NCBI GenBank assembly: GCA_905339155.1
Contig: CAJPFJ010000004.1
Coordinates: forward strand, 1 to 64,000
DNA length: 64,000 nt
From: Methanosarcinales archaeon
GTDB lineage: Archaea > Halobacteriota > Methanosarcinia > Methanosarcinales > Methanoperedenaceae
Direction of reading: 5' to 3'
In this document: one piece after another, positions 10,598 through 31,423 of the stretch
Layout: every line of letters begins with the position of its first letter
How positions within the stretch are numbered: position 1 is the stretch's first letter
Notes under the pieces: generated by a model
Database searches by the model: none
Seen by the model: the letters and a program-made list of their open reading frames with translations, nothing else
What the model was told of the DNA's origin: nothing
Program-made: the position numbers and the translations under genes

Positions 10598-10912
10598 TAG
10601 CGGGCACACCTGGGGTCGCAGTCCCTTCCACTGAACGGTTGACCACAAACTCGCCTCCGCCCCGCGCCCCCATGAGCGATAGTTGTTCACGGCTGGTTTG
10701 CTCCCTTCCGGGCCTAGACCGTTATCCGCAACTAAGGCACAAAAACCTTCCTTCAGGAAAGCCCCTGTACCAACACCAGCCCCATAGGACGGGGTTTCAC
10801 AGTAGAACCTGTGGGCCATTCAATAGTCAAAACTTCTTCCTTTGGTTTCGCCCCCCGCTATCGACGGTTTCGGGTTACAGGTAACGCCGAGTTACCCGGG
10901 CTAGCCCGCCGG
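10598..10912 (-). ncRNA. ffs: archaeal signal recognition particle (7S) RNA
   Basis: The minus strand carries a roughly 315-nt GC-rich RNA gene in an AT-rich setting. Its 5' end has the archaeal SRP signature GGGCTAGCCCGGGTAACTC, GGCGTTACC and TGTAACCCGAAACCG. The apical helix 8 has the universally conserved GGCCCGGAAGGGAGCA (near 10716-10701). The first bases GCGGGC (10909-10904) pair with the 3' end GCCCGC (10605-10600), closing the molecule as in archaeal 7S RNA with helix 1/5. Exact ends are estimated to within a few bases. It scaffolds SRP19 and SRP54 for cotranslational membrane targeting. Two open frames over this locus are artefacts of the RNA gene. Confidence 0.93.
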
Positions 10913-24189: not shown

Positions 24190-24852
24190 ATGGTCCTCCA
24201 GGAGAGCGATAAGGAAGCTATCCAAAAAAGATTTGTAGAACTTGCAGATGATGTGGAACTTATTGTTTTTTCACAGGAGCTTGAGTGCCAGTTCTGCAAG
24301 GAAACAAGAGAGATGGTGCTTGATTTGGGGACATTATCAAAAAAAATAAAAGTGAAAATATTTGACTTTGTCAAGGATTCGGATGAAGTCCTTAAATATA
24401 ATATTAAAAAAATCCCCGCCATAGCAATAGCTGGAAAAATAGACTATGGAATCAGGTATTATGGCTTACCTGAGGGATACGAACTTCCGGTCATGATCGA
24501 TACGATAATTGATGTTTCAAAGGGAAAAACAAAATTATCCGATGCAATAAAGACCCAGCTTTCGGAAATAAAAAAATCCGTTCATTTACAGGTATTCGTT
24601 TCGCCAACCTGCCCATATTGCCCAAAAGCCGCAAAGACCGCTCACCAGTTTGCAATTGAAAATGAAAATATTCGTTCCGATGTAATAGAAATGGCGGAGT
24701 TCCCTTATCTGGTTCAGAGGTACAGCGTTATGAGCGTTCCCCACATTGTGATCAACAATGATTCTTCATTTGTAGGCGCGTATTCCCCTGAGATATTCAT
24801 TGACCAGATAGCATTGGCTCTACGCTCTGCCTACAATCCGATGTACTCTTAA
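24190..24852 (+). CDS. glutaredoxin-like protein disulfide oxidoreductase (two thioredoxin folds)
   Basis: A 220-residue protein with two thioredoxin-fold units. The first has a CQFC motif (LECQFCKETREMV, near residue 32) and the cis-proline KKIPAIAI; the second has CPYC (SPTCPYCPKAAKTA, near residue 140) and cis-proline SVPHIVI. This is the plan of archaeal PDO proteins that form or exchange disulfides and accept electrons from thioredoxin reductase-like enzymes. Four bases separate it from the small membrane protein upstream. Its 3' end overlaps the convergent methyltransferase gene by four bases. Confidence 0.88.
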   Translation: MVLQESDKEAIQKRFVELADDVELIVFSQELECQFCKETREMVLDLGTLSKKIKVKIFDFVKDSDEVLKYNIKKIPAIAIAGKIDYGIRYYGLPEGYELPVMIDTIIDVSKGKTKLSDAIKTQLSEIKKSVHLQVFVSPTCPYCPKAAKTAHQFAIENENIRSDVIEMAEFPYLVQRYSVMSVPHIVINNDSSFVGAYSPEIFIDQIALALRSAYNPMYS

Positions 24853-25532: not shown

Positions 25533-25590
25533 AACGGGCGATCAGAGGTATGGGGGTTGGTAGGGTTTTAAAAAAATCCGACCGCTCGTT
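25533..25590 (-). ncRNA. predicted small hairpin RNA, family copy 1
   Basis: On the minus strand AACGAGCGGTCGG (25590-25578) pairs with CTGATCGCCCGTT (25545-25533), 12 of 13 positions with two G.U pairs and one A-C mismatch. The loop starts ATTTTTTT and continues AACCCTACCAACCCCCAT. A TATA-like GGTTATATATG lies about 27 bases before the stem. The pairs that are G.U on this strand are mismatches on the other strand, so transcription is probably minus. The unit repeats at 25698 (165 bases away). Confidence 0.6.
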
Positions 25591-25697
25591 ATACATAATA
25601 ATGATACGTATCATATATAACCCTTTCCATCCAAAAAAATTATAATGATTATAACTTATTTCACTCAATATTTTGGGAGAAAATACATAAAAGCATC

Positions 25698-25753
25698 AAC
25701 GAGCGGTCGGAGAGTGGGAGTGGTGGGTTATATAAAAAAATCCGACCGTCGTT
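25698..25753 (-). ncRNA. predicted small hairpin RNA, family copy 2
   Basis: AACGACGGTCGG (25753-25742) pairs with CCGACCGCTCGTT (25710-25698), with a single bulged base. The loop is ATTTTTTTATATAACCCACC followed by ACTCCCACTCT. The TATA-like GGTTATATATGATAAG lies at the same distance upstream as in copy 1. After the hairpin, GATGCTTTTGTATTTTCTCC could terminate transcription. Confidence 0.65.
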
Positions 25754-25860
25754 ATACATAATAATGATACTTATCATATATAACCTTTTCCCCTTAAAAA
25801 TCATAATGATCATATATAACTTGCCTTGCTCAATATTTTGGGAGAAAATACAAAAGCATC

Positions 25861-25912
25861 AACGAGCGGGCGGGAGTGGGAGTGGTTATTTAAAAAAATC
25901 CACCCGCTCGTT
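25861..25912 (-). ncRNA. predicted small hairpin RNA, family copy 3
   Basis: AACGAGCGGGTGG (25912-25900) pairs with CCGCCCGCTCGTT (25873-25861) over 13 of 13 positions with one U.G pair that would be a mismatch on the plus strand. Relative to copy 2 the inner stem has changed on both sides (GGTCGG/CCGACC to GGGTGG/CCGCCC), a compensatory change. The loop is ATTTTTTTAAATAACCACTC and CCACTC. Upstream the TATA box is TATAAATATT instead of TATATATG but at the same distance. Confidence 0.65.
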
Positions 25913-26026
25913 ATAAATAATAATGAGTATCATAATATTTATACTTTTTCATCATTTTTCCGGAAATAACCCTGGATTATATAGTAAACTTTAAATATGA
26001 TTCTTTGAATTTTGGGACCAGTGTAA

Positions 26027-26074
26027 AGTGGCAGGTAACGTTTTTTTCTAACCCCCACTCCCCAACCTGCCACT
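26027..26074 (+). ncRNA. predicted small hairpin RNA, family copy 4 (opposite strand)
   Basis: On the plus strand AGTGGCAGGT (26027-26036) pairs perfectly with ACCTGCCACT (26065-26074), and outer AGTG (26020-26023) with CACT (26078-26081). The stem sequence is unrelated to copies 1-3, but the loop is the same type: TTTTTTT then CTAACCCCCACTCCCC. A TATA-like CTTTAAATATG at about 25989-25999 puts a start near 26018. GATTCTTTTGTTC follows as a possible terminator. Confidence 0.6.
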
Positions 26075-26173
26075 GTGCACTAAGATTCTTTTGTTCAGAA
26101 AATATAAGAAATTTGGTGTATCTCTTAAATAGAATTTCCCCATTCTTTTCGCATTTTAAAAATTCGTCTAAGG

Positions 26174-28669: not shown

Positions 28670-29893
28670 TCAAAACCCAAATTGTAGTCCTTTTCCATAA
28701 GTGATCAACTCCACATTTTTAATATTTGAATTAATATCCTTTCCATTATCGTTCTGTAATCGTATCCAAGCGCCATAATTGAAAATTCCCTTAACCGTAT
28801 ATGCCTGACCATTAAGCCTTACAAGATCATGAGGCTGGAATTTGTATCTCTCTCTTCGGATAGATGGTTTGAATCCTTTTCTATTCAATTGAAGAGAACG
28901 ATTGTTTCTTCTATTTTGCTTAACCGCATGAGGTCGGCATCTTTCCTGATCAGTTCCTTTTGATATTGCAAAAGCGTCATTTACATGCGATTTCTCTAAC
29001 CCCAAATATATCCTGAATTTCTTGGTGATGTAGCCATAGGTATGATTGACTGCGGTTTTTCCATACAGGTTTTTCAATCTTTTGACCAATTCCCATCTTA
29101 CGGTATTCATGAATGCGGAGGCTTTCAAGGATTTTTTGCATAATGCTTCGATCTCAGGATGACCAAATTCTGCTGCTGTCTTGTTTCCTTTCTTCTGATT
29201 GCACTTATGGCAGGCGATAGTTAAGTTGGAAACACGGTCACTTCCACCTTTTGAGGATGGGGTTACATGCTCGATCTCCAAGCGAATATCGGTCTTTCCA
29301 CAATAAGCGCATTTTCGCTGGAATTTCTCAAGCAGATATTCCCTTACTTCATAGCCCTGTAATTCGCCTTGCTGATACTCTATTCCTGATATTTCAGGAT
29401 TCTGCATTTTCTGAGTATCGAAGGATGCTACTTCAACGTCTATTTCAGTTATGGGAAGTAGTTTCTTGATCTTCTCGATCAATTCCAGATGAGAATTGAT
29501 CTTATGCTCTATTGAAGGGGCAAACCAGCCTTTTGGGATGCTCCTGTTCAGGAATCTTGGCTCTCGATACTGAGTATTCCTGTTTCTTCTACCACGCCGA
29601 TACATCATCTTTTCTTTGAGCTTATCAGGTATATCGGTTCTTAAAATCACTTCGCCTGATATGAGTTCTGCTGTTCTGGTTCTCGCAGAGTAACCTATTG
29701 TTTTGAATGCACTATCTATTCCCAATATAATTTCTTGTTTCGTTTCTCCTGTTGCGTATTTTAGCTGGATTGTAAATGGAGTTCGCTTAACAACTTTTGC
29801 TTTTCCCATTTTCAATAAATGCTTTGCTTTTGCTGCTCTGGTCGGCATCAAAGGTTGACCTCTCATGTTTAACACATATACAGGAACTCGCAA
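28670..29893 (-). CDS. iscB: IscB RNA-guided endonuclease (RuvC + HNH)
   Basis: From the TTG at 29893 this is a 407-residue IscB. In order: the PLMP domain (VPVYVLNMRGQPLMPTR; PLMP at residues 14-17), RuvC-I LGIDSAFKTIG (D60), arginine-rich bridge MYRRGRRNRNTQYREPRF, RuvC-II EIDVEVASFD (E154), an HNH nuclease with CAYCGKTDIRLEIEHVTPSS (H209) and NLTIACHKCNQKKGN (N223), and RuvC-III SHVNDAFAI (H303, D306). All catalytic residues are present. A longer frame to 30058 adds 55 residues that look unlike protein and coincide with the omega-RNA region, so I reject that start; AGGAAACAGGA before TTG 29893 supports it. IscB proteins are Cas9 relatives guided by omega-RNA. Confidence 0.9.
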   Translation of the reverse strand: MRVPVYVLNMRGQPLMPTRAAKAKHLLKMGKAKVVKRTPFTIQLKYATGETKQEIILGIDSAFKTIGYSARTRTAELISGEVILRTDIPDKLKEKMMYRRGRRNRNTQYREPRFLNRSIPKGWFAPSIEHKINSHLELIEKIKKLLPITEIDVEVASFDTQKMQNPEISGIEYQQGELQGYEVREYLLEKFQRKCAYCGKTDIRLEIEHVTPSSKGGSDRVSNLTIACHKCNQKKGNKTAAEFGHPEIEALCKKSLKASAFMNTVRWELVKRLKNLYGKTAVNHTYGYITKKFRIYLGLEKSHVNDAFAISKGTDQERCRPHAVKQNRRNNRSLQLNRKGFKPSIRRERYKFQPHDLVRLNGQAYTVKGIFNYGAWIRLQNDNGKDINSNIKNVELITYGKGLQFGF

Positions 29894-30131
29894 GTCCTGT
29901 TTCCTGTGTTTGGATTGGTTCACTTCGGAGCGGTTATCTAAAGTTTTTAAACCGGATACACTGAGAGTTTCCTCTCTGTTTAATATCCGATCACAGTTGC
30001 CACTAACTTGTGAAGCATCAGTGGGTGTGCATGTATTTCTTTTGGATAACTTTTTCAATTTCTTGACTCCTAATCAATCAAATTACTCTTTGTCCCTCAC
30101 GGGACAAGCCTCCGGTTTCAACCGGAGGTGA
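29894..30131 (-). ncRNA. predicted IscB omega-RNA
   Basis: The DNA from the element end (30131) to the IscB start codon is transcribed in the same direction, begins with two strong hairpins (CCTCCGGTT loop AACCGGAGG, then TTGTCCC loop GGGACAA) and is otherwise low in coding quality. IscB guide RNAs are known to lie upstream of iscB with the guide at the 5' end, taken from sequence flanking the element. Here the guide would come from the 3' end of the DUF1015 gene just beyond 30131. Length of about 238 nt fits known omega-RNAs. Confidence 0.6.
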
Positions 30132-31423
30132 TTGACTTTTCTCATAACGATCCCTTCTGCCACCTTGGGAAGAAAAAGCGTTGATTTCTGGGGAAAATTC
30201 TTCCTTTCAATAAATGCTTTTCTTTCGACGTCTTTTATTGAGAACGGATTTAAGAGAAAAGCAACTTTATATTCCTTTGAATCAACCCTTGAAATGGCTT
30301 CATCAGGACTTGCGTTAAAAGACACATCATCTACAGGTTTTCCCTGTATGACAGGATCTATCAGCCATTCATGAAGTACAATAAGGTCAAGACCCACAAT
30401 TTCTTTTTTCTCTCTTGAAAGATCATGCACAGCTTTCTCATCGGCCCTGAGGATACTGAATTTTTTCCCGTCGTACATCCCGAGCTTTATATCAAATTCA
30501 CTTCTGCGCTTCCTGAGCCTGGAATAGAATTCCTCGTCGTTGGTATCGCTTTCCCAGTCAATTGAAAAATTCTCCCGTATTTTTTGTGTAAGTTCCTGTT
30601 CGCTAAAATTGCGCACTGCCCTGTGCCAGGGTAAAAGTAAAAGAGCCCTGTCCCCTCCTTCCATCAGCATCATCATGGTATATTCAATGCCATCACTTTC
30701 CCTCAGGATATTTGATGCTGTGTACCTGTGGTGCCCGTCAAGTATGAGAAGCTTAAGTCCTTTTGTCAACTTCTTGATCTTTCGAATTAATTTTTCATCA
30801 GTTATCTCCCATAAAAAATGACGGCTGCCATTCAGGGTGACGTCGACTACAGGCGTTTTATCCGGATATGGCACAAAATCAGGGCGTTTAAAACCCAGGT
30901 ATTCCTCGAAAAGATTGTTCAAATCATGGTCTGGCATATTGTATTCAGCAGCAATGGGTGAAAAGTTCATCATACTTGCTCTCATCAACCTGTAGCGTTC
31001 GTTTGAATTTACTTCAAAAATTTTCTCATGCCCCACGATATTTCCTTTCCCGAGTTCTTCAACTTTAACAAGCGATACCAGGCCAAAAACAAAATACAGG
31101 CTCATCCTGTCTTTTTCAGGAAGAAGGGCCAGTATTTCAGGCGTAAGGGAATACATGATACCGTAAATATAAAAAGCAGGTTTTTCTCGTTCTAAAAGTA
31201 TCTTTGAGCTGATGAAACGATCGAGTTCTTTTGTTGCATATCCAATAAATTCATCCCTGTCCATGTCTTTTCTTCTGGTTGTCACCTGGATAATGTTGTT
31301 TTTCTCATGGGCGAATCTCTGGTAATTTGCGGCATCTATGGTATCATAAACCGGACAAATGAGTTTATCAATCTGCATCCCCGGATTAATTATCGTGGCT
31401 TTAAAAGGTCGAATTTCTACCAT
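30083..31423 (-). CDS. DUF1015 family protein, C-terminus altered by the IscB element
   Basis: A 446-residue protein with the DUF1015 core. Residues 200-240 contain LKLLILDGHHRYTASNIL with the family motif LDGHHRY, and the C-terminal half has VGLDLIVLHEWLIDP and AFLLNPFSIKDVERK with FLPKVAEGIVMRK, where the family normally ends. The last residues, VNHLRLKPEACPVRDKE, are encoded by the hairpin region of the IscB element and are not conserved-looking. So the true end has been replaced by element sequence, adding a tail of about 17 residues. DUF1015 proteins resemble ParB-like kinases in part of their fold; the role here is unknown. Upstream is the 318-base region with promoter-like repeats. Confidence 0.85.
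   Translation of the reverse strand: MVEIRPFKATIINPGMQIDKLICPVYDTIDAANYQRFAHEKNNIIQVTTRRKDMDRDEFIGYATKELDRFISSKILLEREKPAFYIYGIMYSLTPEILALLPEKDRMSLYFVFGLVSLVKVEELGKGNIVGHEKIFEVNSNERYRLMRASMMNFSPIAAEYNMPDHDLNNLFEEYLGFKRPDFVPYPDKTPVVDVTLNGSRHFLWEITDEKLIRKIKKLTKGLKLLILDGHHRYTASNILRESDGIEYTMMMLMEGGDRALLLLPWHRAVRNFSEQELTQKIRENFSIDWESDTNDEEFYSRLRKRRSEFDIKLGMYDGKKFSILRADEKAVHDLSREKKEIVGLDLIVLHEWLIDPVIQGKPVDDVSFNASPDEAISRVDSKEYKVAFLLNPFSIKDVERKAFIERKNFPQKSTLFLPKVAEGIVMRKVNHLRLKPEACPVRDKE

Follow-up and report, generated by a model that had tools for sequence, protein, structure and literature searches.

Small intergenic RNAs with stem-loops and a regulatory single-stranded part have been described in the archaeal order that includes Methanosarcina. 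In Methanosarcina mazei, sRNA154, sRNA162 and sRNA41 act partly by masking ribosome binding sites (PMC5867862, PMC3510493), sRNA162 homologues were found only in two close relatives (PMC3510493), and some M. mazei sRNAs carry small ORFs (PMC11456600). A dRNA-seq study of Methanolobus psychrophilus R15 reports nine highly conserved, cold-induced sRNAs that share a "cold box" upstream of the promoter (PMC5378194). In bacteria, UCCC-type sRNAs of Staphylococcus and the CCUCCUCCC "cuckoo" RNAs of alphaproteobacteria display a constant C-rich motif in hairpin loops, are multi-copy and sometimes tandem, and pair with Shine-Dalgarno sequences. Titrating RNAs of the CsrB/RsmZ and 6S type offer a looser analogy, in which a repeated single-strand motif is shown on hairpins and copy number acts as dose; the CsrB motif is GGA in small loops. 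Few archaeal small RNAs are known to be conserved beyond a genus, and very few have a known function.

Here we describe a family of predicted hairpin RNA genes that spans an archaeal class, is multi-copy and has one nearly invariant C-rich loop. It is not known to be homologous to the bacterial C-rich-loop sRNAs, and general pairing of its loop with ribosome binding sites was tested in two genomes and not supported. Literature searches for the family in Methanoperedens or Methanosarcina gave no description of it, although they did not extend to the primary M. mazei dRNA-seq paper and its supplements, and individual copies may already be listed in earlier sRNA tables. Overlap with the conserved sRNAs of M. 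psychrophilus is likewise possible.

Four hairpins in a Methanoperedens contig

The window analyzed is a 64,000-nucleotide stretch of a Candidatus Methanoperedens genome (GCA_905339155.1, contig CAJPFJ010000004.1). Four hairpins, three on the minus strand and one on the plus strand, lie between a methyltransferase gene and a cyclophilin-type isomerase gene. The features are as follows, with hairpins given from stem foot to stem foot and model scores taken from covariance model R1 (below), which was built without window sequences:

25533..25590 (-), hairpin RNA copy 1; folding z-score -3.8; R1 20.3 bits, E = 0.026; direct repeat of copies 2 and 3 including the promoter
25552..25567 (-), C-rich loop segment of copy 1, AACCCTACCAACCCCC
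25570..25576 (-), U7 tract of the copy 1 loop
25613..25620 (-), TATA box of copy 1, TTATATAT
25698..25753 (-), hairpin RNA copy 2; folding z-score -5.1; R1 18.2 bits, E = 0.08; direct repeat
25717..25730 (-), C-rich loop segment of copy 2, AACCCACCACTCCC
25734..25740 (-), U7 tract of the copy 2 loop
25776..25783 (-), TATA box of copy 2, TTATATAT
25861..25912 (-), hairpin RNA copy 3; folding z-score -5.6; R1 41.2 bits, E = 4.5e-7
25872..25887 (-), C-rich loop segment of copy 3, AACCACTCCCACTCCC
25892..25898 (-), U7 tract of the copy 3 loop
25936..25943 (-), TATA box of copy 3, TATAAATA
25990..25997 (+), TATA box of copy 4, TTTAAATA
26020..26081 (+), hairpin RNA copy 4, the canonical member (core stem 26026-26075); folding z-score -5.3; R1 59.2 bits, E = 3.5e-11
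26041..26047 (+), U7 tract of the copy 4 loop
26048..26064 (+), conserved C-box of copy 4, CTAACCCCCACTCCCCA

The original prediction, that these four hairpins share a constant loop while their stems change, is confirmed by the sequence. Folded as RNA on the C-rich strand, all four are far more stable than shuffled sequences (0 of 200 shuffles as stable for each). Copies 1-3 are direct repeats of about 85 bases that include the promoter region, with start-to-start spacing of 163 and 159. Each loop has seven U followed by a C-rich segment, and each copy has a TATA box about 23 bases before the stem foot. One detail is weaker than originally claimed: the inner-stem change GGTCGG/CCGACC to GGGTGG/CCGCCC is only partly compensatory (one pair becomes U.G), and four copies alone could not prove covariation.

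Distribution of the family

A 621-base query recovered the loop and 3′ stem of copy 4 in nearly every genome of the genus and, weakly, in other families. The exact loop pattern TAACCCCCACTCCCCNACC occurs in 81 of 186 genomes of the order, while the reversed pattern occurs in none, which excludes chance. We aligned 54 relatives without any window sequence and built covariance model R1. The model recovers copies 4 and 3, whereas copies 1 and 2 score weakly and are tied to the family by repetition of copy 3 and by relatives of the same subtype (loci L017 and L021), not by the model alone. Although these E-values are rough, R1 hits 175 of 186 genomes of the order at E <= 0.1 and 219 of 238 genomes of the class at E <= 0.001 (147 of 151 good ones). 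In an even sample of 394 genomes of the phylum it hits only the window's order and one further family of the class, inferred to be Methanothrix and kin, and none of about 310 other genomes. A scan with a 24-letter gapped pattern gave 87 stretches, all from this group of archaea: Methanoperedens, ANME-2, GoM-Arc1 (GB37), Methanosarcina, Methanolobus, Methanococcoides, Methanohalobium, Methanohalophilus, Methanosalsum and Methanomethylovorans, plus records titled only "archaeon" or "Euryarchaeota". A search of IMG/VR with the exact loop, which covered viral but not Borg records, returned no copies.

The family is previously uncatalogued. No Rfam 15 family matches the window's hairpins or 17 relatives above gathering score, and relaxing E-values gave only chance hits. 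The hairpins also do not match the HEARO RNA (RF02033) present 4 kb away, for which only 29913-30136 of the window matches.

Most genomes carry 1-5 copies, Methanosarcina has about 2-4, and most Methanothrix-type genomes have one. By contrast, some Methanoperedens genomes show strong expansion with paralogue-specific stems, with up to 28 hits in one genome (G004) and 15 in the window's genome (G000), both at E <= 1. Conversely, all eight genomes of two small-genome genera of one family (g22 and g23 of family f5, genomes G087-G092 and G103-G104; 1.3-1.8 Mb, one over 90% complete) lack the hairpins that almost every relative has, suggesting probable loss in reduced, perhaps host-associated genomes.

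Signatures of structured RNA and of independent promoters

Presence of a structured RNA predicts that stems covary across relatives. On the 54-sequence alignment, 93.4% of stem cells are paired, against 79.8% when shuffled, 7 of 11 pairs change on both sides, and the covariation score is 0.474, against 0.207 shuffled and at most 0.146 when slid. A class-wide set gives 0.419 against 0.192, with 9 of 11 pairs changing on both sides, although that alignment is fitted to the model and includes three likely wrong-strand matches. Furthermore, G.U cells outnumber A.C cells 24 to 5 on the C-rich strand (the stem picker mildly favors G.U). Further copies in related genomes and covariation beyond the four hairpins had both been set beforehand as conditions that the prediction should satisfy, and both were found.

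TATA boxes sit at a fixed distance upstream on the C-rich strand only. Exact TATA octamers begin at -35 to -21 of the hairpin 126 times in 177 nonredundant copies, against 2 upstream of the G-rich strand and 1 in shuffles. T runs of five or more follow the hairpin within 40 bases in 67 of 196 copies, against 5 before it. Among 222 copies, 208 are intergenic (by crude ORF calling), and the next gene is on the same strand in 73 and on the opposite strand in 133. Neighboring genes are conserved within a lineage but differ between lineages.

The loop stays while the stem changes. A run of at least five U is present in 167 of 196 loops (2 after shuffling) and lies 5′ of the C-box in 167 of 167 relatives that have both, while 36 of 196 loops carry two or more CACTCCC motifs, as in Methanosarcina and Methanolobus. 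Loop invariance is partly imposed in one alignment (A4), because its sequences were picked by their C-box.

Candidate functions

The original interpretation is partly supported. Its core, a family of hairpin RNA genes with a constant loop, covarying stems and a fixed promoter on one strand, is strongly supported and extends to the whole class, not only Methanoperedens. Its functional inference, that the C-rich loop pairs with G-rich ribosome binding sites, is not supported. In 205 genes of a Methanosarcina genome the loop prefers start regions over upstream controls no more than its own shuffles do (-2.32 against -2.26 +/- 0.27 kcal/mol), and the same holds in 104 genes of the window's genome (-1.25 against -1.32 +/- 0.25). 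These tests included starts in ACDS operons, the published sRNA41 target; one ACDS-operon gene start gave about -16 kcal/mol, but it is a G-rich start region, as are other strong scorers. The perfect 10-nt complement GGGGAGTGGG is about as frequent as its reversed control outside hairpins, with no clear excess, and its sites lie mostly in coding sequence, a tRNA or further hairpins. A few specific mRNA targets with imperfect pairing would escape these tests. Pairing with SRP RNA, whose archaeal gene lies at 10598-10911 (-) of the window, was also no better than shuffles.

Together, our analyses show that the four hairpins belong to a multi-copy, noncoding small RNA gene family of the class that holds Methanosarcina, Methanoperedens and Methanothrix, and we are highly confident in this identity. 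The anatomy is that of independently transcribed, trans-acting genes: the predicted start is at the foot of an 11-14 bp stem, the loop shows a single-stranded U5-7 tract followed by (CU)AACCCCCACUCCCC, and a short pyrimidine-rich tail follows. Transcription itself, as RNAs of about 60-90 nt, is inferred from sequence alone, as is everything that concerns mechanism. In the view that we favor, the stem is only a covarying scaffold and the loop is the working part, most likely the docking site of a conserved single-strand RNA-binding partner. The U-tract would suit an Lsm/SmAP ring, given the general preference of Sm-like proteins for U-runs, and the C-box a second, as yet hypothetical protein, so that the RNA would act in trans as a scaffold or titrating RNA whose dose is tuned by copy number and by one or two C-boxes per loop. 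Invariance over a whole class, together with a second invariant element (the U-tract) and motif duplication, fits recognition by a conserved protein better, and we favor this view over selective mRNA pairing. This mechanism remains tentative, at somewhat less than even odds, and our confidence in the whole statement, identity and mechanism combined, is a compromise only slightly better than even. One possibility, which we consider less likely than not, is that the family is an archaeal counterpart of the CsrB/6S kind of protein-controlling RNA, which would sequester or scaffold a conserved RNA-binding protein through its U-tract/C-box loop and be kept in nearly all members of the class, both methane makers and methane oxidizers.

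Close behind is a trans-acting, base-pairing sRNA like sRNA154, sRNA162 and sRNA41, in which the C-box is a seed for G-rich stretches in a limited set of mRNAs (at ribosome binding sites or elsewhere) and the U-tract an Lsm site. M. mazei sRNAs of this order do mask ribosome binding sites (PMC5867862, PMC3510493), and the C-box is exposed in a loop and duplicated in some genera. However, the absence of preference over shuffled loops and of any clear excess of complement sites weighs against it, and we regard this reading as possible but not favored. A cis-acting leader or attenuator is very unlikely and largely refuted: some copies lie 18-110 bases before a same-strand start, and the same gene (such as an RtcA-like cyclase) recurs behind one Methanoperedens paralogue, but the downstream gene is more often on the opposite strand and flanking genes differ in each lineage. 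A DNA-level element (a bidirectional terminator, recombination hairpin or REP-like mobile repeat) is suggested at first sight by inverted repeats with tandem copies, but is highly unlikely given the one-sided TATA box at fixed distance, the G.U excess on one strand, the loop motif maintained across a class and the syntenic neighbors retained within lineages. A short mRNA for a small protein is least likely of all, since conservation follows base pairing and a loop whose length changes are not in multiples of three, and stems change by compensatory pairs.

A structured RNA kept in 147 of 151 good genomes of a class that includes the main aceticlastic and methylotrophic methanogens and several ANME lineages is likely to matter for their physiology, and the shared, exposed C-rich loop probably does an old and important job. 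Genetic systems in Methanosarcina make the function directly testable, and the family would be new to Rfam.

Neighboring elements

The tandem subtype (copies 1-3) recurs beside the same thioredoxin-like gene in other Methanoperedens genomes, there next to hdr-like genes (loci L017, L018, L021 and window 24190-24852). Finally, window 28670-30136 (-) holds the HEARO RNA (RF02033, 116.9 bits) with an adjoining RRXRR/HNH protein, an IscB-like OMEGA system in a Methanoperedens genome.
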